Shown in pieces: positions 6,521 to 18,565 of a stretch of 64,000 bases of DNA (its first letter is position 1; every line of letters starts with the position of its first letter). The DNA is taken from assembly GCF_001244995.1 (NCBI RefSeq), contig NZ_LN869529.1, forward strand, positions 1,816,957 to 1,880,956, written 5' to 3'. The notes beneath the pieces were generated by a model that did no database searches, had not been told where the DNA came from, and saw only the letters and a list, made by a program, of their open reading frames with translations. Both the position numbers and the translations under genes were made by a program. This DNA comes from Intestinimonas massiliensis (ex Afouda et al. 2020). Its GTDB lineage: Bacteria > Bacillota > Clostridia > Oscillospirales > Oscillospiraceae.

Positions 6521-6608
6521 GCTTTCCCTCACAATGTTTCAAATCTCTGCCTATGATACCACAAACCCGGATGTCCGGCAAGTGGCTCGGCCACTCTTCC
6601 AAAAAGAC

Positions 6609-6642
6609 CCCCGCGGCCTTGCTTTATCGCAAGGCCGCGGGG
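6609..6642 (-). terminator. Intrinsic terminator after marR
   Basis: Perfect 14-bp arms at 6609-6622 and 6629-6642, followed on the minus strand by TCTTTTT, end the MarR transcript before dus. Confidence 0.85.
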
Positions 6643-6675
6643 CATCTCTTCCATGGCTCAAATTTTGGTGGGCCG

Positions 6676-7164
6676 TCAAGTGGGGGCCTGGTTGCGGCTG
6701 CACAGACACGACAGGCATTGGAAAAGGACCTCCAGATCCCCGGTCGGAATGCCCCGGAGCGCCTCATCCGCTGCCTCGCGCACTGCGGCGGCGGCTTCCG
6801 AGCCCAGGCAGCTTCCCCGGATGGTCAAATCGACCCGTCTTTGCCTGCGGTCCTTCCGAAGTGGCCGGCGGGAGACGACCCCCTTCTCCTGGAGCTGCCT
6901 CAGATAGTTGGAGACCACCGAGCTGGTGTAGCCCAGCGCCTCCGAGAGGTTTGCGGGCGTGATTTTTTCTCGTCCCCGCAGGACCCGCAGGATGTTGTAC
7001 TCGCCCGGGGTAATGCCACAGGCGGCAAGGCGCCCGGCGGCGCGCCGGGTCATGGAGCGCTGCGCCAGTTGAAGCATGTCGTATATGCTGCTCGGCGGCG
7101 GCTGGATGCCCCCGCCTTCTGCTGCGGCCCGGCGGCCGCTTTCACAAAGCGCCTGCGTCTGCAT
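6676..7164 (-). CDS. MarR-family transcriptional regulator
   Basis: A 162-residue winged-helix regulator. The HTH lies at about residues 55-100 (ITPGEYNILRVLRG, NLSEALGYTSSVVSNYLRQL), followed by the beta-wing RRPLRKDRRQRRVDLT. A C-terminal dimerisation helix ends in LFQCLSCLCSRN, which has three clustered cysteines that might sense oxidants; this is inference. ATG 7162-7164 has AGGAGG at about 8 nt; an adjacent GTG is possible. It lies downstream of the nitroreductase on the same strand but behind a hairpin, so it may be separately transcribed. Confidence 0.82.
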   Translation of the reverse strand: MQTQALCESGRRAAAEGGGIQPPPSSIYDMLQLAQRSMTRRAAGRLAACGITPGEYNILRVLRGREKITPANLSEALGYTSSVVSNYLRQLQEKGVVSRRPLRKDRRQRRVDLTIRGSCLGSEAAAAVREAADEALRGIPTGDLEVLFQCLSCLCSRNQAPT

Positions 7165-7201
7165 CACGCTTTCCTCCTCCCCCCTCCCCCGCTGAAAAAC
7201 C

Positions 7202-7239
7202 AGCGCCCCCGCCGCAGACCGTTCCGCAGCAGGGGCGCT
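7202..7239 (-). terminator. Hairpin between nitroreductase and marR
   Basis: Arms AGCGCCCC (7202-7209) and GGGGCGCT (7232-7239) bracket a GC-rich loop just after the nitroreductase stop. There is no strong U-run, so it is a possible partial terminator. Confidence 0.45.
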
Positions 7240-7259
7240 TGGCCGGGGACCGTCTCTGC

Positions 7260-7799
7260 CTACATGCGATAGCGCAAGATCTCACAGACCTCTTTCCTTC
7301 TGGGCGGCACGGGTGATCCGTCGGGATAGCCGCAGGCCACCAGGGCGATGATCTCCTCGTCCTCCGGAAGCTCCACCTGGCGGGATACCCCGTCCTCGTC
7401 AAAGGACGCCAGAATACAGGTGCCCAGCCCCATGGCATGGGCGGCCAGGCAGATGTTCTGGCAGGCGACGCCGGTATCAAACATCTCCCAGGAGGAGCCC
7501 TTTGCCGTGGACGTGGTCCCATTCCTCTCATAGCCGGATCGCTTTTTGACAATGGACAGCACCAGCAGCAGAGGTGCATTGCCCACAATGCGGACGTTTT
7601 CCGGCGCCACCAGCGTCTCGGCGATGCGTTTGAGTTCGGCCTCGTTCTCCACGGCGGTATAGCGTACCGCCTTGCAGTTGTTCCACGACGGCGCCCAGCG
7701 GGCACAGTCGATGAGCTGCTCAATCTCGCTGCGACCCACCTTTTCAGGCTTGAATCGTCGAATACTGCGGCGGCGTCTGATGCACTCTAATACATCCAT
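7260..7799 (-). CDS. Nitroreductase-family FMN oxidoreductase
   Basis: The 179-residue protein starts CIRRRRSIRRFKPEKV, the FMN-phosphate-binding arginine motif of the NfsA/FRP fold. It continues with ARWAPSWNNCKAVR and has the C-terminal motif AAHAMGLGTCILASFDED. The family uses NAD(P)H to reduce nitro groups, quinones or enoates; the substrate is not predictable here. It begins 30 bases after the acyl-CoA dehydrogenase with SD AGGAGAGG, so it is probably the last gene of the CoA-pathway transcript. In that setting it may act on an electron carrier or enoate, but this is speculative. Confidence 0.85.
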   Translation of the reverse strand: MDVLECIRRRRSIRRFKPEKVGRSEIEQLIDCARWAPSWNNCKAVRYTAVENEAELKRIAETLVAPENVRIVGNAPLLLVLSIVKKRSGYERNGTTSTAKGSSWEMFDTGVACQNICLAAHAMGLGTCILASFDEDGVSRQVELPEDEEIIALVACGYPDGSPVPPRRKEVCEILRYRM

Positions 7800-7829
7800 A
7801 AGGGGTCCTCTCCTGTTCTCAAGAAAAGC

Positions 7830-8963
7830 TTACTTCATGACCTCGCGTGCGATGACCATCTTCTGGACCTCGGAGGTGCCCTCGTAGATGGGGACGATGC
7901 GTGCGTCGCGGTACATGCGCTCGATGGGGTAGTCCCGCATGTAGCCGTAGCCGCCGTGGATCTGAAGGGCCTTGTTGGTGACCCAGACGGCGTTCTCAGA
8001 GGCGTAGTATTTGCACATGGCGGCCAGCTTGGACAGCGGCTGGCCGTTGTCGGCGGCGACGGCGGCCTCCAGGATGAGGGCCTTGGCGGCCTCGGTGCGG
8101 GTGGCCATGTCGGCCAGATACCACTGCAGGCCCTGGTTCTTTCCGATGGGCTTGCCGAACTGGACCCGCTCGCCCATGTACTTGACGGAGGCGGCGATGG
8201 CGGCCTCGCAGATGCCCAGCGCCTGGGCGGCCATGCCGATCCGGCCGCCGTCCAGCGCCATCATGGCGATCTTGAAGCCTTCGCCCTCCTTGCCCACCAG
8301 GTTGCTGCGGGGGACCCGGCAGTCCTCAAAGATCAGCTCGGAGATATCCGCGCCCCGGATGCCCATCTTCTCTTCCCGCTTGCCCACGGTGAAGCCGGGG
8401 GTGCCCCGGTCCACCACGATGGCGGACATGCCCTTGACGCCCTTCTCCGGCTCGGTGAGGGCGATGACCACCACATAGTCGCCCTCGGTGGGGCCCATGT
8501 TGGAGATGAAGCACTTGCTGCCGTTGATGACGTAGTCGTCCCCGTCCACCACGGCCTTGGTCTTGGCCGCGGCGGCGTCGGAGCCGGCGCCCGCCTCGGT
8601 GAGGGCGAAGGCGCCGATCTTACCCTCCACGGCGGCGGTGAGGTACTTCTGCTTCTGCGCCTCGGTGCCGTGCTTGAGGAAGATGTCGTTGACCAGGGTA
8701 TGCACGGCGATGACCTCCGCGGTGCTGGCGCACTGCCGGGCCAGCTCGGAGACCACCAGCACCTTGCACACGGTGTCCAGACCGGGCCCGCCGTACTCCT
8801 CGGGGACGTTCAGGGCGGTGAAGCCGATCTCGGCCATCTTCTCGATGATCTCCTTGGGGATGCGCTCCTCCCGGTCGATCTCGGCGGCGATGGGGGCCAG
8901 CTCGGACTCCGCAAAGTCCCGGGCCAGTTGCTGGATCATCTGTTGATCTTCGGTAAATTGCAT
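7830..8963 (-). CDS. Acyl-CoA dehydrogenase (short-chain, butyryl/propionyl type)
   Basis: A 377-residue flavoprotein of normal family length. Visible features: N-terminal helical domain, the FAD/substrate signature FALTEAGAGSDAAAA at about 125-140, QFGKPIGKNQ, and the C-terminal GGYGYMRDYPIERMYRDARI followed by YEGTSEVQKM, whose Glu is the catalytic base. It lies 66 bases after the CoA-transferase gene, with SD AGGAGG. In context it would reduce acryloyl- or crotonyl-type CoA made by the ammonia-lyases, or run in reverse. No etfAB genes are nearby, so electron transfer would rely on flavoproteins encoded elsewhere. Confidence 0.92.
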   Translation of the reverse strand: MQFTEDQQMIQQLARDFAESELAPIAAEIDREERIPKEIIEKMAEIGFTALNVPEEYGGPGLDTVCKVLVVSELARQCASTAEVIAVHTLVNDIFLKHGTEAQKQKYLTAAVEGKIGAFALTEAGAGSDAAAAKTKAVVDGDDYVINGSKCFISNMGPTEGDYVVVIALTEPEKGVKGMSAIVVDRGTPGFTVGKREEKMGIRGADISELIFEDCRVPRSNLVGKEGEGFKIAMMALDGGRIGMAAQALGICEAAIAASVKYMGERVQFGKPIGKNQGLQWYLADMATRTEAAKALILEAAVAADNGQPLSKLAAMCKYYASENAVWVTNKALQIHGGYGYMRDYPIERMYRDARIVPIYEGTSEVQKMVIAREVMK

Positions 8964-9028
8964 CGTGATTCCTCCTGTTTCTCCGTCCGCCTTTGGGGCG
9001 GCCGCCGCTTCCCATACCGGCTCAACGG

Positions 9029-10225
9029 TTAGATGACGCCCTCTGCCCTCAGCGCCGTCTCCTGCTCCGGCGTGAGGCCAAAGACCTCCCGGTTGTGCTG
9101 CCCCAGCGTGGGAGCGGGCGTGTAGACGCCTCCGGGGGTCTTGGACAGCTTGGCTACCACGCCCTGGACGGGCATATCGCCCAGCAGGGGGTGGGGCGTT
9201 GGGGTGTGGACCAGCATCTCGCGGGCCTTAATGTGGGGATGCTCGATGGCCTCCTTCATGTTGAGGACCGGGCCACAGGGAATGGCCACCTCGTCCATCA
9301 TGGCCTCCAGCTCTTTTTTGGTGTACTGTCTGACCCAGCCCCGGATCAGGTCCTGAAGGTCGGGGATGTAATTTTTGCAGCGGAGATCGTTGGTCTTGTA
9401 GCGGGGGTCCTCCAACAGCTCGGTGTGGCCGATGAGTTTGCAGAATTTCTCCCACAGGCGGTCGTTGCCCACGCCCAAAGCCACAAAGCCATCCCTGCAG
9501 GGATAGATGTCGAAGGGGCAGATGGAGGGGTCTACGTTGCCGTTGCGCTCGGGGACGACGCCGTGCATGACATAGTGGGGGATGGCGTTCTCCAGCAGGG
9601 AGAAGATGGTGTCCACCATGGACACATCCACCATCTGGCCGACGCCGGTCTTCTCCCGCTCATACAGCGCCACCATGGCGCCCACGAACTGGTAGATACC
9701 GGACACGTGGTCCGCTACAGAGGGCCCTACCTTTACCGGATCGGTCTCCTTGAAGCCGGTGAGGTTTACCATGCCGCCCATGGACTGGGCCACGATGTCG
9801 TAGCAGGGGCGGTGGCCGATGGGGCTGGTCTGGCCAAAGCCGGAGCCCGAGACGTAGATGATCCTGGGATTGATCTTCTGGATGGTCTCGTAGTCCACCT
9901 TCAGCTTTTGGGTCACGCCGCCCTTGAAGTTCTCGCACAGGAAGTCGGCGTCCTTCACCAGTTCGTAGAGCATGTTCAGACCTTTTTCGGTCTTGAGGTT
10001 CAGAGTGACGCCCTTCTTGTTGCGGTTGTAGTTGGCAAAAAAGCCGCTCTCGCCGGTCTTCTCGTCTATGGGGCCCCAAGTGCGGCACTGCTCTCCGTCC
10101 GGGGTCTCGATCTTGATGACCTCTGCGCCGTAGTCTCCAAAAAACATGGTGCAGAAGGGTCCGCTCAGGGCGGTGGTCAGGTCGATCACCTTAAGGCCGT
10201 TCAGGGGCTTGTGATTGTTCGGCAC
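9029..10225 (-). CDS. Class III CoA-transferase (CaiB/BaiF family)
   Basis: About 398 residues. The start is GTG 10223-10225 (VPNNHKPLNGLKVIDLTTALSGP) because GGGAGG stands 9 nt upstream; a longer frame has no SD. Family marks are the N-terminal GLKVIDLTTALSGPF, GAEVIKIE, and LVKDADFLCENFKGG, where the Asp aligns with the aspartate that forms the acyl-enzyme anhydride. These enzymes move CoA between carboxylic acids. Eighteen bases separate it from the hotdog gene upstream. Inferred role: activate the incoming amino acid, or recycle CoA from the product thioester. Specificity cannot be read from sequence. Confidence 0.9.
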   Translation of the reverse strand: MPNNHKPLNGLKVIDLTTALSGPFCTMFFGDYGAEVIKIETPDGEQCRTWGPIDEKTGESGFFANYNRNKKGVTLNLKTEKGLNMLYELVKDADFLCENFKGGVTQKLKVDYETIQKINPRIIYVSGSGFGQTSPIGHRPCYDIVAQSMGGMVNLTGFKETDPVKVGPSVADHVSGIYQFVGAMVALYEREKTGVGQMVDVSMVDTIFSLLENAIPHYVMHGVVPERNGNVDPSICPFDIYPCRDGFVALGVGNDRLWEKFCKLIGHTELLEDPRYKTNDLRCKNYIPDLQDLIRGWVRQYTKKELEAMMDEVAIPCGPVLNMKEAIEHPHIKAREMLVHTPTPHPLLGDMPVQGVVAKLSKTPGGVYTPAPTLGQHNREVFGLTPEQETALRAEGVI

Positions 10226-10242
10226 GTTTCTTATCCTCCCGA

Positions 10243-10611
10243 TCAATAGGTCTCATAGACGAACTGAGTCACCGTACACAGGGGGGGATCGGCGAGCACG
10301 TCGATGGAGCTGGGGAAGGGGGGATCCTTGGGCACCTCTATGATCTTGTAAGCGCGGACCTCGATCAAAGACTTGTTGCCCTCGGTCTTTTTGATGCGGG
10401 CAATGTACTCCATGTAGTCGCCGGCGAACAGGGGCACATATAAGCGCACCTTCTTGACCTTCACACAGTGGCCGGTATTGCCGAAGGTCTTGGCCATCAG
10501 CCGGTTGGCGCAGTCGTTCATCAGGGTGATGCTCCGCGCGCCGTTGACCACCCCTCCGCCGTAAAATACGTCCCGATCCGACATTCTATATCTCATCGTC
10601 ACTGTTTCCAT
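10243..10611 (-). CDS. Hotdog-fold beta-aminoacyl-CoA ammonia-lyase-like protein, paralogue B
   Basis: A 122-residue hotdog protein of the 3-aminobutyryl-CoA/beta-alanyl-CoA ammonia-lyase family. It keeps the N-terminal signature RMSDRDVFYGGGVVNGARS and the GDYMEY strand. Where the complete paralogue at 17.5 kb has GDVGTELMVYVDGD and LFLGY, it has NDCANRLMAKTFGNTG. It also lacks the C-terminal KKDQRG tail and is shorter. It is the mirror image of paralogue A, which keeps what B has lost. SD AAGGAG lies 9 nt before ATG. The gene precedes the CoA-transferase and is separated from paralogue A by IS110. Family is fairly sure; activity alone is doubtful. Confidence 0.75.
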   Translation of the reverse strand: METVTMRYRMSDRDVFYGGGVVNGARSITLMNDCANRLMAKTFGNTGHCVKVKKVRLYVPLFAGDYMEYIARIKKTEGNKSLIEVRAYKIIEVPKDPPFPSSIDVLADPPLCTVTQFVYETY

Positions 10612-10644
10612 TCTATTGTTCTCCTTGTATTATAAAGTAGTAGT

Positions 10645-10864
10645 TATTAGAGCCCCTCTCCAAGGGCTATGTGCTACACTGTAAGGGATGCTGTGGATTG
10701 GTGTTGTCCTCCTACCAGAAGATGGTTTAAGAAAGGTTCCAACCACAGCCCTTTGCAGTTTTGTTAATCAGTTAAATACCGCCAGACGGTTTATGTGGAA
10801 CAAGGCTACAAGAGCAAAGTGTTCTGTGGAGCAGCATCACAATCTTACCGTTGGAGGTTTTATC
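10645..10864 (+). ncRNA. Candidate bridge-RNA region of the IS110 element
   Basis: In IS110-group elements a structured bridge RNA is made from the long non-coding end beside the transposase start; its loops pair with the target and donor DNA. This 220-nt stretch before ATG 10865 is the larger non-coding end, which favours the IS110 layout over IS1111. I did not fold it, and the position rests on family knowledge plus the lack of any other gene. Confidence 0.4.
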
Positions 10865-12043
10865 ATGGTAGTTTCTGTTGGCATTGATGTCTCAAAGGAC
10901 AAGCACGACTGCTTCATTCTCAACTCGGAAGGTGAAGTCCTGGCAGATGTGTTCACCATTCCCAACAACATGGATGGTTTTACCTGCCTGCTTCAGAAAA
11001 TCCGGGACTGCACCACATCCCAGGACAAAATAAGAGTAGGGCTTGAGGCGACCGGACATTACAGCTACAACATCCTTGGGTTTCTTCTTGACAACGGTCT
11101 GGCCACCTATGTCTTGAACCCTTTGCGCACCAATCTCTACAGGAAAAGTCTCAGCTTAAGAAAGACAAAGACTGACCGTGTGGATGCACGAACGATTGCA
11201 GCTATGCTTCTGTCCGATGTAGGCCTCAAGCCCTACACAGACACAGCATACCACAATGAGGAGCTAAAGTCACTCACAAGATACCGTTTCGACAAGGTGA
11301 AAGAACGAGCCAAACTGAAATGCTCTGTTTCCAGGCTGGTCTGCATCCTGTTCCCAGAGTTGGAAAATCTGGTACCGTCCCTCCATGGGGCTTCTGTCTA
11401 TGCCTTGCTGGAAGAGTTCCCTGGCGCCGTTCAGATCGCCGGGGCGCACCTGACACGACTGAAATCCCTTTTGACTGACGCCTCCAGAGGCCGTTACGGG
11501 CGGGACATGGCCCTGGACATCCGGGATGCTGCCAGGAATTCCATAGGCTCCAGAATGCCTGCCAAGTCCCTCGAATTGCAGCATACCATCCGGCTTATCC
11601 GGGAACTGGACGCTGAAATTGAGGAAATCGAAACAGAAATCCAAGCTATGATGGATGAACTGCACTCTCCGATCACGACCATTCCGGGCATTGGCTGTCG
11701 CATGGGGGCTATGATCCTTGCCGAGGTTGGGGACTTCTCCCGCTTTGAATCTCCCGACAAGCTGCTTGCCTATGCAGGGCTTTCACCATCGACCTACCAA
11801 TCCGGACAGCTCAAGAACTGCTATCCGCACATGGAAAAACGCGGCTCCAGATACCTTCGCTACGCCATTTACAACGCCACCAAGTATGTCTGCTTATGGG
11901 ACCCGGCCTTTGCGTCTTACCTTGCCAAGAAACGAGCGGAAGGCAAGCATTACAATGTTGCAATCTCCCACGCGGCCAAGAAACTGGTACGGCTCATCTT
12001 CGCTCTGGAGAAGTCCAGACAACCGTACCGTCTGGTAGCCTAA
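10865..12043 (+). CDS. IS110-family transposase (DEDD/bridge recombinase)
   Basis: The start is ATG 10865 (MVVSVGIDVSKDKHDCF), because GGAGG lies 9 nt upstream; the frame is open further but without SD. The 392-residue product has an N-terminal RuvC-like DEDD domain (GIDVSKDKHD, VGLEATGHY, KTDRVDARTIA). A coiled-coil middle follows. The C-terminal Transposase_20 domain has TTIPGIGCRMGAMILAE and YAGLSPSTYQSGQ, where the conserved catalytic serine is expected. The length is normal and I see no frameshift, so the element may be active. Confidence 0.93.
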   Translation: MVVSVGIDVSKDKHDCFILNSEGEVLADVFTIPNNMDGFTCLLQKIRDCTTSQDKIRVGLEATGHYSYNILGFLLDNGLATYVLNPLRTNLYRKSLSLRKTKTDRVDARTIAAMLLSDVGLKPYTDTAYHNEELKSLTRYRFDKVKERAKLKCSVSRLVCILFPELENLVPSLHGASVYALLEEFPGAVQIAGAHLTRLKSLLTDASRGRYGRDMALDIRDAARNSIGSRMPAKSLELQHTIRLIRELDAEIEEIETEIQAMMDELHSPITTIPGIGCRMGAMILAEVGDFSRFESPDKLLAYAGLSPSTYQSGQLKNCYPHMEKRGSRYLRYAIYNATKYVCLWDPAFASYLAKKRAEGKHYNVAISHAAKKLVRLIFALEKSRQPYRLVA

Positions 12044-12180
12044 CTTACTCTTGCTGGCATCCGGGGTCCTAACGGACCTCTACTTTGATATACTTTTTTT
12101 GAACCATCTGTTTTTGTACCACCGCCATTCATTTTGGGGGTTGACTTCTAATAGTTAATCTTTCTGATATAACGTTACGT

Positions 12181-12657
12181 CTACATCTCGCAGTCGTCTT
12201 CGGGGAAGTCCTCCAGAGGACGCCAGGGATTCTCCACCAGGCCGTCGGGCTGCTCGCCGCGCTGCAGGTGCTTCTTCACCACCAGGCGGACGTTGCCCTC
12301 GGTGCAGAGCACCGGCTTGTCAAACCAGACCATATCGCCGGGCTTGCAGTCGGTCCGGCCGGCGCGGGCGGCGGGGGTGGCCAGCTTATACACCTCGATA
12401 CGGCAGTCGCGTGAAGTGCCTCCCACATGGGTCATGGTGGCCTTATATTCCATCATGTCCCCCACAAATACATCCTCGTAGATTTCTACGTCGTGATAGC
12501 CCAGGCACAGAGACTCGTCGCCGTCGTTGAGGATCATCTGCTCGGTCTCCACGTCGCCGATGAAGTCGAACTGACGGCCAAATGGCACCAGTCCGTCCGG
12601 ATTATTGGCGTCCGCCGTGGTCATGTTGTAGCTCAGATAAGATATCTTTCTTGCCAT
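12181..12657 (-). CDS. Hotdog-fold beta-aminoacyl-CoA ammonia-lyase-like protein, paralogue A
   Basis: The 158-residue protein aligns almost without gaps to the full-length lyase at 17.5 kb through GDVETEQMILNDGDESLCLGYHDV, GDMMEY and VKKHLQRGEQ. The region matching HYVGGLVNGAR is replaced by NNPDGLVPFGRQ. It therefore keeps the DGD/LGY block and tail but lacks the Tyr-Gly-Gly-VNGA block, the reverse of paralogue B. An acidic C-terminal extension (FPEDDCEM) is extra. It follows the BrnQ carrier gene by 30 bases on the minus strand. IS110 now separates it from paralogue B. Likely a subunit of a heteromeric lyase; this is inference. Confidence 0.72.
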   Translation of the reverse strand: MARKISYLSYNMTTADANNPDGLVPFGRQFDFIGDVETEQMILNDGDESLCLGYHDVEIYEDVFVGDMMEYKATMTHVGGTSRDCRIEVYKLATPAARAGRTDCKPGDMVWFDKPVLCTEGNVRLVVKKHLQRGEQPDGLVENPWRPLEDFPEDDCEM

Positions 12658-12687
12658 GATGCTTGTTCCTCCTTAAAAATGGTCAAT

Positions 12688-14052
12688 TTATGCGTCCGCT
12701 GCGCTTTTCAGAGGGGGATCCGTCTGTTTTTCCCGGTAGGCAAACCAACCAATGATGAAAGCCAGGATGGTAAAGGGCACCCAAGCCAGGGACACGTCGG
12801 CAAAGGGGAGCTTCAGATAGAGATCGCAAATCCCGCCGGGATTGGCGTCAAGTTTTACAAAGTATTTCCATATCATATCCAGAGCGCCGAATATCACTGA
12901 GGCATACATCGCCCAGCGTGCGGCCAGCGTCTGCCGGGGGGACATGGCGTTGGGGCACAGCGCGTAGTAGAGCACCAGCACGATAGCGGGGGGATAGATA
13001 CCGTCCAGGATGGGGCCCAGCAGAGAGAGAATGTTGGTCAGGCCCAGGCTGCCGAAGATGATGCTCAGGACTACCATAATCAGTGACCACTGCTTGTAAT
13101 TGAGTCTTTCATGACTCACTTCCACGAAAAACTCAGCGCAGCCGGAGGTCATGCCGATGGCGGTGGTCAGGGCGGCCAGGAAGAGCGCCATGGAGAAGAG
13201 GATCCCGCCCACCTTGCCATACAAGATGGCAGCCACGGCGGTGTAAAGGGCCGTGTAGCTCAGATCCAGCGTACCGCCGGTGTTGGCCCCGATGATCATA
13301 TGGGCCAGGTGGGTGCAGCTTAGCATGGCCAGACCCACAATGCCCACGCGGACCATGTTCTTGCTCATGCGATCATGGGCGACGCCCTTGTTCTCCAGGG
13401 TTTTGAGGATCACCACGCCGAAGATGAGGGCGCACAGGATCTCCGCGGTGGCGTAGCCGTTGGTGAAGCCGTAAGCGAAGGCGTTGCCCTCATAGGACTT
13501 CGCCACCGGCGCGGCAATGGGATTGAGCAGTCCCTTTCCGACCACGGCCACCACAATGATCAGCAAAATGGGGAACAGGATGGCGGAGATGCGGTCCATG
13601 GCCTTTCCGGGGTTGGCCAGGAAGAAGTAGGTCACAATATAGAATAGAATGGTGAAGATGATGAGGGGCAGCTTGGAAGTGGGGTTGAGCCCAAATGCCT
13701 GGACGATGGAATCCCAGGAAGCCGCGCTCATACGGGGGATGGCGTAGAGGGGCCCCAGCACCACGATGGTCAGGCAGGTAAAGAACGCTCCAAAGCGGTT
13801 CCCAACGAGCCGGCCGGTCATTTGACTGTAGGATTGGTTGGATTTTGCCAGCGCGACATAGGCGACCAGCACCAGCAGGATGGCAGTGATGAAGGCTCCG
13901 ATGAAGGCCAGCGGCCAGGAGCTTCCGCTCTCTTTGCCCCAGTTCATGGGCCACACCATACTGGATGCGCCAAAATGCATGGAAAACAGGGCTCCGCCGG
14001 TCATAAACAGGGCTACGGGGTTCAGGTCTCCGTGTTTGTTCAGACTGCTCAA
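12688..14052 (-). CDS. brnQ: BrnQ-type branched-chain amino acid:cation symporter
   Basis: A 454-residue polytopic protein with about 12 hydrophobic segments. The N-terminal signature GGALFSMHFGASSMVWPMNWG and the PRMSAASWDSIVQAF loop belong to the LIVCS family, which imports Leu/Ile/Val with Na+ or H+. The start is TTG 14050-14052, with GGGAGG eight nt upstream. It heads the minus-strand gene series and is divergent from a MerR gene. Given the neighbours, the real substrate may be another small aliphatic amino acid such as beta-alanine or aminobutyrate; that is inference from context only. Confidence 0.82.
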   Translation of the reverse strand: MSSLNKHGDLNPVALFMTGGALFSMHFGASSMVWPMNWGKESGSSWPLAFIGAFITAILLVLVAYVALAKSNQSYSQMTGRLVGNRFGAFFTCLTIVVLGPLYAIPRMSAASWDSIVQAFGLNPTSKLPLIIFTILFYIVTYFFLANPGKAMDRISAILFPILLIIVVAVVGKGLLNPIAAPVAKSYEGNAFAYGFTNGYATAEILCALIFGVVILKTLENKGVAHDRMSKNMVRVGIVGLAMLSCTHLAHMIIGANTGGTLDLSYTALYTAVAAILYGKVGGILFSMALFLAALTTAIGMTSGCAEFFVEVSHERLNYKQWSLIMVVLSIIFGSLGLTNILSLLGPILDGIYPPAIVLVLYYALCPNAMSPRQTLAARWAMYASVIFGALDMIWKYFVKLDANPGGICDLYLKLPFADVSLAWVPFTILAFIIGWFAYREKQTDPPLKSAADA

Positions 14053-14354
14053 ATAACATTCCTCCCTTGTTTGCCTTTTTGTGGATGTCCGCGAACAATT
14101 CGTATGCTAGCCGTTACAGCAGATGGAAAGTCAACTCTTTTTTACGTAAAAATAAATGGTGAGTTTCCAAACTATTTCCAGAAGTCTCCTGTTGCAGTAG
14201 GGTTCTTTTGTGGATTTTTATCTTAGGAATATTAATTTATTGGAAAATTTGTTATTGAAACACACAGAAAATATGGATATTATATATTATAAATTATGTA
14301 AAGAGGCATGGCACTTCCCCGCAATACTTCGACCGACCGTAAGGAGGGATTTCT
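14053..14354. other. AT-rich divergent regulatory region between brnQ and merR
   Basis: Three hundred bases without a gene. It is much more AT-rich than its surroundings, especially 14130-14310. It contains the predicted brnQ promoter and the SD GGAGGG that fixes the MerR GTG start. It is the likely operator site for the adjacent MerR protein. Confidence 0.6.
14104..14134 (-). promoter_or_regulatory. MerR-type promoter for brnQ (19-bp spacer)
   Basis: On the minus strand TTGACT (14134-14129) and TAGCAT (14109-14104) are 19 bp apart. This over-long spacing is typical of promoters that MerR proteins activate by DNA distortion. The spacer includes the imperfect dyad GCTGTAACGGC. The predicted start lies about 45 nt before the brnQ TTG. 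Confidence 0.5.
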
Positions 14355-15248
14355 GTGGTTCCCGAAGACGACTGCTACTCTATCGGAAAGGTTGCCGGAC
14401 TGTGCAACACCCCTGTAAAAACGCTGCGGTATTACGATGAAATCGGTCTGCTCAAGCCCACGTACCGCCGTGAGGAGAGCAATTACCGCTATTACAGCAA
14501 GGAACAAATGAACACGCTGCTGGTGATTCGCCGTCTGCGTGCCCTCGGTTTTAATCTCAAGGAGGTTCAAAGCCTGATCGAGGACACCAGTCTGGACTTT
14601 ATCGAGAGCATGATGACTGCTAAGCAGGCAGAGCTCAACGAGGAAATCCGCATGCTTCAGGCCAAGCAGCAGACCATCTCCTCTCTGTTGGGCCGGGTCC
14701 GGCTGGGCCGCGAGATCATGGCGCAGCATCGCTCGGAGGTAGGGCCGGACCTGTCCCGGCACTCCACCCCCATTCAAGTCGAGTACATACCCGAAGGACA
14801 ATTGCTTTACTCCCGCCAGCTTATGAAGCAGTACCGCAATGCGGACGTCTCCTTCTCCCGTTGGATTGACATTCTGGAGCAATGCACCGCCCTGGGCATC
14901 CCGCTGGAGAGCCCTATCATTGTCACCTTTTATGGGGAGCTGCTGGGGCAGTTCCTAATGAAGGACTGTGATGTGGAATTCGGTGTGCTCATTGGGCAGA
15001 ACGCCGTATTGCCCGAGATTGAGAATGTGCGCAGTTGGGGCGGCACCTATGCAGCCACCGTCTATCACGTCGGGAAATACAGCGATATCGTCCGGAGCTA
15101 CATCACCCTTCTGCAGTGGATTAACCAGCACGGCTGCGAGGTGCTGGGCCCCCCCGCGGAACGGTTCATCATCTCTCCCCTGGAGGTAAAGGACGAGGGA
15201 CAGCATATCGTTCAGATCCTCATCCCCATCCGGCGCCCTGCCGCATGA
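14355..15248 (+). CDS. MerR-family regulator with GyrI-like effector domain (1)
   Basis: The 297-residue activator has an N-terminal MerR winged helix (YSIGKVAGLCNTPVKTLRYYDEIGLLKP) and then NYRYYSKEQMNTL. A dimerisation coiled coil spans about 75-120. The C-terminal GyrI/BmrR-like ligand pocket covers about 130-295. GTG 14355 is the start, with GGAGGG in front. It is divergent from brnQ, so control of the amino-acid/CoA cluster is the natural prediction. A close paralogue lies at 16.4-17.4 kb beside the complete ammonia-lyase gene. The effector is unknown; a pathway metabolite or CoA ester is possible. Confidence 0.85.
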   Translation: MVPEDDCYSIGKVAGLCNTPVKTLRYYDEIGLLKPTYRREESNYRYYSKEQMNTLLVIRRLRALGFNLKEVQSLIEDTSLDFIESMMTAKQAELNEEIRMLQAKQQTISSLLGRVRLGREIMAQHRSEVGPDLSRHSTPIQVEYIPEGQLLYSRQLMKQYRNADVSFSRWIDILEQCTALGIPLESPIIVTFYGELLGQFLMKDCDVEFGVLIGQNAVLPEIENVRSWGGTYAATVYHVGKYSDIVRSYITLLQWINQHGCEVLGPPAERFIISPLEVKDEGQHIVQILIPIRRPAA

Positions 15249-15492
15249 CCCGGGTTCTCCGCCATGCTCTCCGTTTGTCCGACAGATTGCCCCGGGAAGG
15301 CTGTAACGTCTTTTCAGGGCAATCTTCTTTTTTTACCCCTCTAGCCTGTCGAATCCGGAACCCTTCCATTTGCTGGAGTGTTTTTTGAAAATTGCACGGC
15401 GGGACGGTTGCAATCCATCGACATCCCATTGACCCTCTTGCAACTGGACCCGTTATAATAGCAGTGGATTCTTCAGGTCAGGAGGTACAATT

Positions 15493-16335
15493 GTGAATCA
15501 AACAAAGAAAGCCATGCTCACGATGCTGCTCACTGCCTTCTTGTGGAGTCTGGCGGGCGTCTTTATCAAACTGATTGAAATGGATGCGCTAGCCATCGTC
15601 TGCATGCGAAGCTTTGCAGCCTCACTGACTATGCTGTTTTTCATACGCCGCCAAAAACTTCCGTGGTCCTGGCCTATGTTGGGCGGCGCACTTTCCTATA
15701 TGGCCTTTACTTACTGCATCATCCTTTCCACCAAACTCACCACCTCGGCCACCGCCGTGATGATGCAGTACACCGCCCCGATCTATGTGGCCTTTTTCTC
15801 CTGGATGATCCTCAACGAGCGGGTCCGCCGCTCGGACTGGGTGTGTCTAGCCGTGGTGCTGGGCGGCATGTGCCTTTTCTTTCTGGATAAAATGGGCGGC
15901 GGCAGTATTCTTGGAAACGTCATTGCGCTGGGCAATGGCATCTCCTTCGCCCTTCTCTCCATCTTTCTACGCTTCCAAAAAGGCGGACACCCTGAGCAAT
16001 CCATCTTCCTGGGCGGCTTTCTCGCCTTTCTTATCGGCATTCCCTTCACTGTCCGGTCCTTTCAGTCTCAACTTCCCTCCCCCCGTGACATCGCTGTTCT
16101 TGTAATCGCCGGTATCGTAGTCACGATGGGTTACCGACTTTTCACCGAAGCCTCCAAGAGTCTGACCGCCCTGCAAACCGTGATGCTGCCTATTATCGAC
16201 CCTATTCTCAATCCCGTTTGGGTGTTCCTGGCCGTGGGCGAACGACCCGGCGCTGTCTCTCTTTGCGGCGGCGGCATTGTGCTGGCTGCCATCACCATCC
16301 GTTCCCTCCTGCTCATTCGCTCCCCGCAGCCCTAA
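15493..16335 (+). CDS. EamA/DMT-family transporter
   Basis: The 280-residue, ten-helix permease contains two EamA repeats (about 5-135 and 145-275), with typical segments LLTAFLWSLAGVFIKL, TSATAVMMQYTAPIYVAFFSWMIL and LTALQTVMLPIIDPILNPVWVFLAVGE. EamA proteins mostly export amino acids or other metabolites. GTG 15493 follows AGGAGG by 7 nt. It stands 244 bases after MerR 1 and convergent with MerR 2. Within this locus it could export an end-product or excess amino acid, but the substrate cannot be deduced. Confidence 0.85.
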   Translation: MNQTKKAMLTMLLTAFLWSLAGVFIKLIEMDALAIVCMRSFAASLTMLFFIRRQKLPWSWPMLGGALSYMAFTYCIILSTKLTTSATAVMMQYTAPIYVAFFSWMILNERVRRSDWVCLAVVLGGMCLFFLDKMGGGSILGNVIALGNGISFALLSIFLRFQKGGHPEQSIFLGGFLAFLIGIPFTVRSFQSQLPSPRDIAVLVIAGIVVTMGYRLFTEASKSLTALQTVMLPIIDPILNPVWVFLAVGERPGAVSLCGGGIVLAAITIRSLLLIRSPQP

Positions 16336-16403
16336 GACGCAGAAGCGGCCCGCTGCATGGCGGCAGGCCCTTGACCCCCAACATTCGTTCCATCCGCAAA
16401 AGC

Positions 16404-16440
16404 AAGAGAAGCCGTCGTCCTGCCAACGCCGGCTTCTCTT
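16404..16440 (-). terminator. Terminator hairpin between eamA and merR 2
   Basis: Arms AAGAGAAGCCG (16404-16414) and CGGCTTCTCTT (16430-16440) lie between two convergent genes and probably serve both. Confidence 0.65.
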
Positions 16441-16443
16441 GGT

Positions 16444-17370
16444 TTAGATGGCGTTCTCCTCCATCGGCCTTTGGGGTGGCCGTTTCTTCCCCTGCTTCTC
16501 TTCTCTGCGCTCCGTCTCCTGGACCGGAATAATAATTTTGGTGATATGTTCTTCTTCCTTGTTGACATCCACCGGGGAGACGATGTATTCCTCCGAGATG
16601 GGGCCGGCCACCTCATAGCCATGCTCGGAAAGCCATTTGATCGTCTTGACATGGCTCTGGATGATCTCTTCGTTTCGGCCGATATGCAGGGCGGTCACCG
16701 CCCGGAAGCCGCCGAACTGCTTGAAAATGGGCAAGTCCTGGTGTTCGTTTACCTCGATGCTGATCTCCAGGTCGCAGTCCACCTTAAAAAACTGCTCCAG
16801 CGGTTTGTTGTGATAGGTCAGGATCACCGGCCCTTTTACCCGCAGATTGTGCTTGGATACCATCTTGAACAGTTCAAACCATCGGTCTACCGACACGTCG
16901 CTGTTTTTATAGTTCTTCTTGATCCGCCGGGTAAACAGCACCTCGCAGGCTGGGATGTCCTCCACCTGTATCTCCTCCGTGCTCCAGCTCTCCCGCCCCG
17001 CCGACAGTACGGTCTGCCCCCTGGCCAGACGGTTGAGCAGGGTCTGTCCCTCCTCGTACTGACCGTTCAGCGTCTCGATGGTCTGGCCGATCTCCTCCAG
17101 CCGCGCCTGGATGCTTCGGGTCATTGCCGCCGTATCCTGTCCGCAGACAATCTCCCGGACCTCCTTCAGCGGAATGCCCAGCAGCTTTAATTTCCGGATG
17201 ATGAACAGCGTCAGCAGCTGCTCCTGGGAGTAGTAGCGGTAATGATTGTCGTCCTTCCGGTGACTCGGGACCAAAAGGCCGATCTTATCATAATACCGCA
17301 GGGTCCTGACAGGGACGTTGCACAACGTGGACACCTTGCCGATGGAGTATTGATTTTTTTCCTCTGCCAT
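16444..17370 (-). CDS. MerR-family regulator with GyrI-like effector domain (2)
   Basis: A 308-residue paralogue of the regulator at 14.4 kb, with the same architecture. The MerR HTH (YSIGKVSTLCNVPVRTLRYYDKIGLL) is followed by HYRYYSQEQL, a coiled coil and a GyrI-like ligand domain ending in KIIIPVQE. A basic tail rich in Arg, Lys and Gln (about 290-308) is extra. It is downstream of and co-directional with the complete ammonia-lyase gene, separated by a strong terminator. That two sibling regulators flank the lyase genes suggests they respond to related ligands. Confidence 0.85.
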   Translation of the reverse strand: MAEEKNQYSIGKVSTLCNVPVRTLRYYDKIGLLVPSHRKDDNHYRYYSQEQLLTLFIIRKLKLLGIPLKEVREIVCGQDTAAMTRSIQARLEEIGQTIETLNGQYEEGQTLLNRLARGQTVLSAGRESWSTEEIQVEDIPACEVLFTRRIKKNYKNSDVSVDRWFELFKMVSKHNLRVKGPVILTYHNKPLEQFFKVDCDLEISIEVNEHQDLPIFKQFGGFRAVTALHIGRNEEIIQSHVKTIKWLSEHGYEVAGPISEEYIVSPVDVNKEEEHITKIIIPVQETERREEKQGKKRPPQRPMEENAI

Positions 17371-17467
17371 ACCGTCTCGTCCTTTCGACGTTTAATTTCC
17401 TTGTTTTTCCAGTATAGCACAATCGTTCCATGCGCACAACGGCTTTTTTATGCCGGACGCTGTCCGT

Positions 17468-17509
17468 ATAAAAAGAAAGAGCGGACCGCGGTCCGCTCTT
17501 TCTTTTTAT
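17468..17509. terminator. Strong bidirectional terminator after acl
   Basis: Twenty-base perfect inverted repeats with a 2-nt loop (17468-17487 and 17490-17509) and T/A flanks end the ammonia-lyase message. Confidence 0.85.
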
Positions 17510-17514
17510 GAAAC

Positions 17515-17967
17515 TTACTCGCCGCGATGCTTTCGGTTGCTGTAAGAGGACTCGGTGGGTCCGCGCTGGTCCTTTTTGGCGATGAACAGGCTGCCGGTGG
17601 CGGTGCCGCACAGAATGGGAGGCTCGCAGGCGGTGGCGGCCGTATGCGCGATGCCGGTCATGTCGGCGCCGGTGCGGTCCAGCATGGTGGCAACCTTCCA
17701 GGCCTCAAACTTGCACTTGTAGGACTGGTTGCCGACCTCGATGATCTCGCCGGTATACTCCATGAAGTCGCCCTCGTAGACGGGGGCCGTGAACTTGATG
17801 TCCTCATAGCCCAGGAACAGGGAGATGTCGCCGTCCACATAGACCATCAGCTCGGTGCCGACGTCGCCCCACTGATTCACGATACGGGCGCCGTTCACCA
17901 GCCCGCCCACATAGTGACAGTCCTTGGAGCTCATCATCAGATGATGTACGACTTTCTTACCAACCAT
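17515..17967 (-). CDS. acl: Beta-alanyl-CoA:ammonia lyase-like hotdog enzyme
   Basis: The 150-residue protein looks like the Clostridium propionicum beta-alanyl-CoA:ammonia lyases (Acl) and the lysine-pathway 3-aminobutyryl-CoA lyase (Kal). Shared elements are HYVGGLVNGARIVNQWGDVG, YVDGDISLFLGYEDI, APVYEGDFMEY and the C-terminal FIAKKDQRGPTESS. The enzyme removes ammonia from a beta-aminoacyl-CoA to give the enoyl-CoA, acryloyl-CoA in the Acl case. It carries every motif that paralogues A and B each only half retain. SD AAAGGAGG precedes ATG. It is monocistronic, with MerR 2 downstream. The exact substrate (beta-alanine or 3-aminobutyrate) is not settled by sequence. Confidence 0.82.
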   Translation of the reverse strand: MVGKKVVHHLMMSSKDCHYVGGLVNGARIVNQWGDVGTELMVYVDGDISLFLGYEDIKFTAPVYEGDFMEYTGEIIEVGNQSYKCKFEAWKVATMLDRTGADMTGIAHTAATACEPPILCGTATGSLFIAKKDQRGPTESSYSNRKHRGE

Positions 17968-18565
17968 TGTTAAGATCCTCCTTTTAATTATGTGAGTTTT
18001 TTGCGCCTGGAAAGGTTTGTTTTCCTTTTCTCAACCTGTCACTTATTTTAGGAGATACCCTAAATGGATGGTCAACCGGAAGATGAAAAAAAGTTTTCCG
18101 CAAAACGGGCCCAAAAGTCAAAAAGGTTCCGTATGGGGGAGGGTTTTCATTTTTCCGATTCTTGCCGCCTTTGCCCGCAAAACAGGTACATTCAGCCAAA
18201 TGGACGGCCAATTCTGCCCCTGTATCTTGTGTCTTTCCATAATTTTATGGCAGGGTTTTTTGCTGACTTCCCATATGACCCGTTTTCCGTTCTCACATCC
18301 CTTCCGTCCCGGAGCAGGGCCCTGGGTGCAGCGGTCATGGCCGCCGAGGCTGTCTTGGTCCTGCGTGGCTCTTGCTTCATGCTGCCGGAGTGCGTCCTCC
18401 TGGCCCCCGGCTCCGCCCCCCACCTGGTCCTGCTGAAATAGCCCGCCGCCTTTCCACGTTTTTCCTTTTCCATCCATCCGGTCAGCCACATTCCGACTAT
18501 ATATTTCCATTTATTGGATTATACTGTCTCTACTACCTTTCGGGATACATAGGAGGAGACAGACC
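17968..18565. other. 598-bp region with no convincing gene
   Basis: It lies between the acl start and spoIIE. Near the left edge are the acl SD and an AT-rich stretch with GGAAA/TTTCC arms that could hold its promoter. A 125-codon open frame at 18064-18441 (+) follows AGGAG, but its composition is unconvincing and I do not recognise it. Just before spoIIE there is a TATACT hexamer and the SD AGGAGGAG. No tRNA or riboswitch was recognised. Confidence 0.5.

Follow-up and report, generated by a model that had tools for sequence, protein, structure and literature searches.

A candidate β-amino-acid fermentation island in Intestinimonas massiliensis with a predicted heteromeric hotdog lyase

The stretch of the Intestinimonas massiliensis genome analyzed here (NCBI RefSeq assembly GCF_001244995.1, contig NZ_LN869529.1, 64,000 nucleotides; hereafter the window) carries a catabolic gene cluster that is probably an acquired island for the reductive fermentation of β-alanine and perhaps of a second β-amino acid, such as 3-aminoisobutyrate, with two ammonia lyases of different design: a homomer of the β-alanyl-CoA:ammonia lyase type (Acl) and a heteromer of a large and a small hotdog protein, which we call HdL and HdS. 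A reductive β-amino-acid route had been put forward in the original prediction and is well supported by the Acl orthologue, an acryloyl-CoA reductase (AcrC)-like flavoenzyme and a CoA-transferase (CaiB) from a lyase-linked clade, and further by the recurrence of BrnQ-type carriers in such operons and of a nitroreductase-family gene (ntr), 71% conserved in the operons of three relatives. Two points of the locus look new: the complementary residue losses of the HdL-HdS pair and the linkage of this pair, in relatives, to genes of pyrimidine degradation. Neither a heteromeric lyase of the Acl or 3-aminobutyryl-CoA ammonia lyase (Kal) type nor pyrimidine fermentation via acryloyl-CoA was found described in the titles or abstract openings returned by full-text searches of an open-access library, subscription papers lying outside that scope.

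The acl product aligns with PDB entry 4mtu (C. propionicum Acl2) at full length (residues 1–147, 80.3% identity) and keeps the family-invariant residues tabulated (His18, Tyr19, Asn25, Gly26, Asp35, Glu39 and Asp47 in 4mtu numbering); judged by these features, it is a close orthologue of the β-alanyl-CoA:ammonia lyase of Clostridium propionicum. Three hotdog proteins had originally been assigned to the lyase family, and while all three are present, the other two are only distant relatives of Acl (E 1.2e-16 for HdL and 1.3e-9 for HdS against 4mtu); the complementary losses seen in the residue alignment rule out the idea that the three are interchangeable lyases. Furthermore, all score below the cut-off of 160 bits of the Kal model NF052388 (115, 66 and 65 bits). 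They share the hotdog family of the lysine-fermentation Kal but differ from it in score, and the genome's two Kal genes over cut-off lie outside the window (C7:1581669 and 1595332, about 1.575–1.603 Mb of G000:C7, stretches L086 and L087). One of these is accompanied by KCE, KamA, the lysine 5,6-aminomutase beta subunit and KamC, ~0.23 Mb from the window locus, and this separate location of KAL, KCE and KamA excludes the window locus as the lysine pathway.

The evidence for a split active site comes from a residue alignment of 22 Acl/Kal, 34 L-type and 33 S-type rows, in which tandem duplicates are counted. Gly26 is kept in 22/22 Acl/Kal and 33/33 S-type chains and in 0/34 of the L-type, Asp47 in 21/22 Acl/Kal and 34/34 L-type chains and in 0/33 of the S-type, and Glu39 in 22/22, 34/34 and 8/33, respectively. 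All 33 S-type chains carry Asn25-Gly26, while HdL has lost His18-Tyr19 as well as Gly26, such that neither HdL, without Gly26, nor HdS, without Glu39 and Asp47, holds the complete Acl/Kal residue set within one chain. In AlphaFold models the position of Gly26 marks the N-terminal end of the hotdog helix, which also includes that of Glu39 (helix 26–45 in HdL, 24–43 in HdS), and a Foldseek search of the PDB returned 4mtu as the best match for both models (E 2.8e-11 for HdL, 7.9e-6 for HdS). In a tree built before the last loci were added, the S-type proteins (hdS and those of a second pair type, hd2S) form one group (100/100) and the L-type proteins (hdL, hd2L) another (100/99), which indicates that the division is old and that the partners have stayed together. 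Hotdog enzymes have their active sites where the two subunits of a dimer meet, and both chains contribute residues; together with the complementary losses, this predicts that HdL and HdS form a heteromer in which each pair has a single working site, where HdS would supply the helix-cap Asn-Gly for thioester binding and HdL the acidic residues. HdL-HdS is accordingly a predicted heteromeric lyase that would need both chains at each site. The second pair type, hd2L-hd2S, is more Acl-like and has lost Gly26 and Asp47 in the same complementary fashion (L099:17811-18690, L105, L106 and L184–L191; L numbers denote loci and G numbers genomes of our comparison); it occurs with caiB, acrC and etfAB in L185 and L187 and beside hydA and an M20 gene in L099 and L191.

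Sixteen relatives of HdL at or above ~50% identity, one from the window's family, seven from a class draw and eight from the family of G580, allowed the gene neighborhoods to be compared; they come from draws of 16–400 genomes and form a sample rather than a census, 13 of the 16 belonging to one family (f65). Four weaker matches were left out, namely G918, G923 and G945 (41–45%, hd2- or Acl-like) and G830 (34%). In the window's family, 40/400 genomes have an HdL match at E ≤ 0.001, and besides the window's own only that of G313 exceeds 44% identity. An S-type gene adjoins hdL in 15 of the 16 relatives, the 16th (L183) being cut by a contig end; in L103 and L180–L182 it is the hd2S query that gives the best score for the S-type gene. 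The stretches around these hdL genes contain caiB in 15 cases, an acrC homologue (43–65% identical) in 14, etfA and etfB, for the two subunits of electron-transferring flavoprotein (ETF), in 11, brnQ in 8 and ntr in 3. The closest gene order, acrC-etfB-etfA-brnQ-hdL-hdS-caiB, is found in L098 and L099, and it recurs in L176, L177 and L178, where ntr and another hdL-hdS pair are also present. In L076 (G313), a butyryl-CoA:acetate CoA-transferase gene (TIGR03948 over cut-off) and TRAP-type genes lie between hdS and acrC.

The same neighborhoods tie the module to pyrimidine degradation. PreT/PreA and HydA are encoded in the hdL stretch of 7/16 relatives (L099, L101, L102, L104, L179, L180 and L182; the pyrimidine-gene families were profile-scanned for L099), and with L100/L157, where PreA lies ~12 kb from hdL on the same contig, 8/16 have PreA within about 12 kb. 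An M20 amidohydrolase consistent with N-carbamoyl-β-alanine amidohydrolase accompanies them in L099, L101, L104, L180 and L182; in L102 the M20-type peptidase belongs to a different subfamily, and no M20 gene was found in the L179 stretch. In L182 a single stretch covers the path between uracil and propionyl-CoA with a candidate at each step. Across whole genomes, the dihydropyrimidine dehydrogenase PreA scores above its cut-off in 12 of the 16 HdL genomes, and in the class draw (two draws treated as the same 391 genomes, as their size and handles agree) it does so in 6/7 HdL genomes vs. 16/383 others (Fisher p 1.1e-7, a test that overstates independence because five of these seven HdL genomes come from f65). 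Three PreA-negative relatives, G717, G914 and G955, have brnQ in the operon and a fourth, G313, has TRAP-type genes; G580, G787, G915, G916 and G926 are PreA-positive yet carry brnQ with hdL. The module thus appears, from gene content, to exist in pyrimidine-fed and import-fed forms that are not strictly separate, the window representing the import-fed one. PreA is absent from the window's genome (best score 155 bits, cut-off 335). Its dihydropyrimidinase (C6:765209, TIGR02033 542 bits, cut-off 393, passed by 9/10 genomes searched) was set aside as evidence for pyrimidine fermentation here, since it has no PreA companion and its neighbors look unrelated.

We would tentatively go one step further and propose, with somewhat less than even confidence, that HdL-HdS is an obligate heteromer with a split site and that the CaiB-AcrC-EtfAB operon makes up the hitherto unrecognized latter half of an anaerobic fermentation of pyrimidines (from uracil through dihydrouracil, β-alanine and acryloyl-CoA to propionate; from thymine to isobutyrate), in which pyrimidines serve as an electron sink, the window locus being import-fed and possibly 3-nitropropionate-fed via the nitroreductase. 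In the pyrimidine-fed form, two reductions, of uracil and of acryloyl-CoA, would make the base such a sink. The accessible parts of two papers describe PydAc and PreTA-HydA without an acryloyl-CoA continuation (PMC7332683, PMC11036815), and a figure legend and reference titles of the former name continuations from β-alanine via an aminotransferase and malonic semialdehyde or to acetyl-CoA (PMC7332683).

The pyrimidine linkage also bears on what HdL-HdS would act on. A division of labor, in which Acl handles β-alanine and HdL-HdS the 3-aminoisobutyrate of the thymine branch, the heteromer yielding methacrylyl-CoA for reduction to isobutyryl-CoA, is a possibility of some weight that we nevertheless doubt. 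It would account for both lyase types in the window and for the presence, beside pyrimidine genes, of HdL-HdS with an Acl-like gene in L104 and with a second pair in L099, and the pyrimidine route does give both β-amino acids; on the other hand, L101, L102, L179, L180 and L182 combine pyrimidine genes with a single lyase pair in the stretch, where uracil-derived β-alanine would be expected as a main substrate. Distinctly improbable, in our estimate, is another β-elimination or hydration on a CoA ester by HdL-HdS, e.g., dehydration of 3-hydroxypropionyl-CoA. The scores of both proteins far from KAL and Acl, the loss of His18-Tyr19 and Gly26 in HdL and the replacement of BrnQ by TRAP-type genes (by eye) in L076 would fit such chemistry, whereas it is opposed by the recurrent proximity to genes for PreTA and HydA, which belong to a route ending in β-amino acids, and by a CoA-transferase clade common to the HdL loci and Acl.

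Regarding CoA activation, the original prediction held that a class III CoA-transferase beside a lyase of this family would be a new combination, and this does not stand. Among 31 Acl loci returned by a pattern-based scan of one genome per species in 84,980 species (15 labeled Anaerotignum/Neoanaerotignum or Lachnospiraceae; C. propionicum itself lies outside the set), a class III CoA-transferase match comes 77–173 bp after that of acl in 18, and a MerR2 homologue, 45–70% identical, stands beside caiB in 17. One of these loci, L038 of A. neopropionicum, encodes an Acl 96.5% identical to 4mtu and an adjoining CoA-transferase of 43.8 kDa. The arrangement of acl, class III CoA-transferase and MerR regulator is therefore an ordinary one in the genus of C. 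propionicum; the adjoining genes and the published Act together exclude a novel partner. Act is described as a 42-kDa β-alanine CoA-transferase that was employed together with acl2, in vitro and in the presence of added acetyl-CoA, its source organism being unnamed in the main text (PMC13042692), and among the enzymes tried in yeast significant activity is reported only with C. propionicum Act, the Pct of the same species being marginal (PMC13067684). By its size and by the neighbor in L038, Act would be the acl-linked class III enzyme. The window CoA-transferase (44.9 kDa) shares one clade (100/100) with eight CoA-transferases linked to HdL and with the one linked to acl in L036, and is 44–48% identical to 17 acl-linked ones of another clade. 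Also in favor of the proposed route, L192 has the order caiB-acl-acrC. It matches PF02515, and the motif Asp, which we take to be catalytic, is kept in 27/27 aligned CoA-transferase rows.

Several further contexts of these genes were seen in passing. At L180:10146-11325 the caiB homologue is in two overlapping pieces in different frames, through a frameshift or an assembly error. A second recurrent acl context (L016, L018, L019, L025 and L028, and, with Acl or Acl-like genes, L080 and L083 of G129) places three conserved 2-oxoacid:ferredoxin oxidoreductase-like genes (by eye) near acl, and no caiB-type CoA-transferase was found in these stretches. G129, from the window's family, has ~10 Acl-like copies or fragments (L077–L083; 34–62% identical to the window Acl), some identical and some at contig ends, and Clostridium sp. 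MD294 strain ASF356 (L023, L025, L027) carries five acl copies spread over three loci, a CoA-transferase and MerR2 homologue occurring at one locus only.

The acyl-CoA dehydrogenase scores 583.2 bits against NF042972 (AcrC), the next family reaching 345.1, and is 57–65% identical to the acrC homologues found alongside etfAB in L076, L098 and L099; AcrA over cut-off is found in G313, G717 and L099. The nitroreductase-family gene had seemed a bystander, with no match at the first eight HdL relatives, a view overturned when a 71% identical homologue was found to end the operon in L176, L177 and L178, all from the family of G580. This conservation is what could recommend a locus serving 3-nitropropionate, which the nitroreductase would convert to β-alanine for fermentation by the remaining genes. 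Denitrobacterium detoxificans is reported to reduce 3-nitropropionate to β-alanine, and mixed rumen microbes to metabolize β-alanine rapidly to unknown products (PMC4777734); according to the same source, however, appreciable nitroalkane-reducing activity is known among anaerobes only from D. detoxificans (PMC4777734). With the low-scoring BluB and malonic semialdehyde reductase as the closest curated models for ntr, and ntr in just 3 of the 16 HdL relatives' stretches, we regard 3-nitropropionate as a very improbable purpose of the locus.

Every gene named in the original prediction is present where it had been placed and belongs to the family claimed, as profile scans confirm; what had been overlooked is an IS110-family insertion sequence (IS) between the two hotdog genes hdL and hdS, and an EamA-type gene (Table 1). 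Read leftward, the minus-strand order is acl, merR2, brnQ, hdL, IS110 element, hdS, caiB, acrC-like and ntr, with hdS and caiB overlapping by four bases and with merR1 and the EamA-type gene opposite in orientation to the catabolic operon.

Table 1. Features of the candidate fermentation locus, in window coordinates.
Feature	Position	Strand	Basis or remark
Nitroreductase-family FMN protein (ntr)	7260..7799	-	PF00881
Acryloyl-CoA reductase AcrC-like acyl-CoA dehydrogenase	7830..8963	-	NF042972 583 bits
Class III CoA-transferase (caiB), proposed β-amino acid:CoA transferase	9029..10246	-	PF02515
HdS, small hotdog subunit (putative)	10243..10611	-	Keeps Asn-Gly; without Glu39 and Asp47 equivalents
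IS110-family element between hdL and hdS	10622..12165		Ends set by five near-identical genome copies
IS110 transposase	10688..12043	+	NF033542 217 bits, cut-off 140; antisense to catabolic operon
HdL, large hotdog subunit (putative)	12181..12657	-	Keeps Glu39 and Asp47; without Gly26 equivalent
BrnQ-type carrier, proposed β-amino-acid importer	12688..14052	-	TIGR00796 247.5 bits, cut-off 243.4
MerR/GyrI-type regulator 1 (merR1)	14355..15248	+	Profile scans
EamA-type membrane protein	15493..16335	+	Open reading frame; family assigned by eye from translation
MerR/GyrI-type regulator 2 (merR2)	16444..17370	-	Homologues adjoin caiB in Acl loci
β-Alanyl-CoA:ammonia lyase (acl, Acl orthologue)	17515..17967	-	E 3e-73 to 4mtu
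Acquired segment, approximate extent, between dusB and SpoIIE-like gene	6600..18500		Congener comparison

The flanks of this segment, dusB and a SpoIIE-like gene, are 12 kb apart in the window. Seven same-genus stretches were fetched, and in the five that contain both genes their match ends lie 150–220 bp apart; as for the remaining two, L174 stops close to the gene, and L170, which extends ~10 kb upstream of its SpoIIE-like gene, has no dusB and no island genes. No Acl-level match was found in 10 congener genomes, several of them incomplete (74–85%): seven have one match of 43–46% identity and three have none, and the only such match put in the tree, from G008, groups with Kal. GC content is 55–66% in the cluster genes (51% in IS110) vs. 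63–70% in five sampled flanking genes. The segment appears, from these comparisons, to be an acquired island of ~12 kb, which the five congener stretches showing both flanks lack. The IS110 element, present in five near-identical copies genome-wide, sits 10 bases from the hdS start and 15 from the hdL end. Its end toward hdS (window 10618-10640) reads TATAAT and then AAGGAG; the latter precedes hdS with the spacing of a ribosome-binding site, and a transcript start from TATAAT would fall about there, so hdS retains a plausible ribosome-binding site. In this isolate the antisense insertion may nonetheless lower expression of hdS-caiB-acrC-ntr. A stronger version, in which the locus is a decaying acquisition whose hdS-caiB-acrC-ntr genes IS110 has silenced, leaving Acl and BrnQ without a CoA-transferase, would agree with the antisense orientation and with the absence of the island from those five congener stretches; with intact reading frames on either side of the element and the AAGGAG before hdS at its junction, we consider it unlikely.

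Taken together, these elements suggest a route in which BrnQ would bring in the β-amino acid, the class III CoA-transferase would shift CoA to it from an acyl-CoA (propionyl- or acetyl-CoA), and a hotdog lyase, whether the complete Acl-type homomer, the HdL-HdS heteromer or both, would remove ammonia, yielding acryloyl-CoA (or methacrylyl-CoA). This product would then be reduced by the AcrC-like flavoenzyme with electrons from a general cellular ETF, and the resulting propionyl-CoA would hand its CoA to the next substrate via CaiB as propionate leaves, with the MerR/GyrI regulators presumably sensing the substrate or its CoA ester. It is important to note that a number of observations weigh against this route or parts of it. 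HdL and HdS reach only 65.9 and 65.1 bits against the KAL cut-off of 160, which leaves the lyase chemistry of both putative; the eight S-type chains that retain Glu39 are all hd2-type, so that the split rests on Gly26 and Asp47; and the HdS model is of modest confidence (pLDDT 68). The HdL locus of G313 (L076) has TRAP-type genes (by eye) and no BrnQ, and its substrate may differ. The PreA cut-off is passed by 2 of 14 control genomes, Escherichia coli among them, so the presence of PreA does not by itself prove the pathway. The AcrC-like protein falls under the curated NF042972 cut-off (583.2 vs. 640 bits), its identity to the acrC homologues of L102, L104 and L179 is no more than 43–44%, there is no dedicated EtfAB near its gene, and AcrA over cut-off is absent from this genome (best 261 vs. 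600; AcrB was not searched genome-wide). Finally, half of the operon may be inactivated by IS110.

Compared with known systems, the proposed reductive β-amino-acid route resembles the β-alanine fermentation of Clostridium (Anaerotignum) propionicum (Act, Acl1/Acl2, AcrABC), through the 80% identical Acl, the AcrC-like reductase, the similar size of the CoA-transferase (44.9 kDa, Act 42 kDa) and the MerR-type regulator linked to acl-caiB in Anaerotignum, but it differs in the clade of its CoA-transferase, the extra HdL-HdS pair, BrnQ and the lack of adjoining etfAB. Reductive pyrimidine degradation (PreTA/PydA, HydA/PydB, PydC) adjoins the HdL-HdS-CaiB module in relatives, whereas the window's genome has no PreA. 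The Pseudomonas BvaA/BvaB1/BvaB2 pathway for β-valine likewise deaminates a β-amino acid as its CoA ester, with a ligase where the window has a transferase, and the source describes BvaB1 and BvaB2 as enoyl-CoA hydratase-like proteins that both deaminate β-valinyl-CoA (PMC4619459).

If the proposed assignments are true, they would show where some anaerobes route the carbon of uracil and thymine beyond β-alanine, and would tie the breakdown of nucleic acids to the formation of propionate and, through thymine, of isobutyrate. They would furthermore extend a small enzyme family, for which our PDB search gave one solved sequence, 4mtu, by a second design that is heteromeric, and they name candidate β-amino-acid CoA-transferases, importers and regulators that are directly testable.

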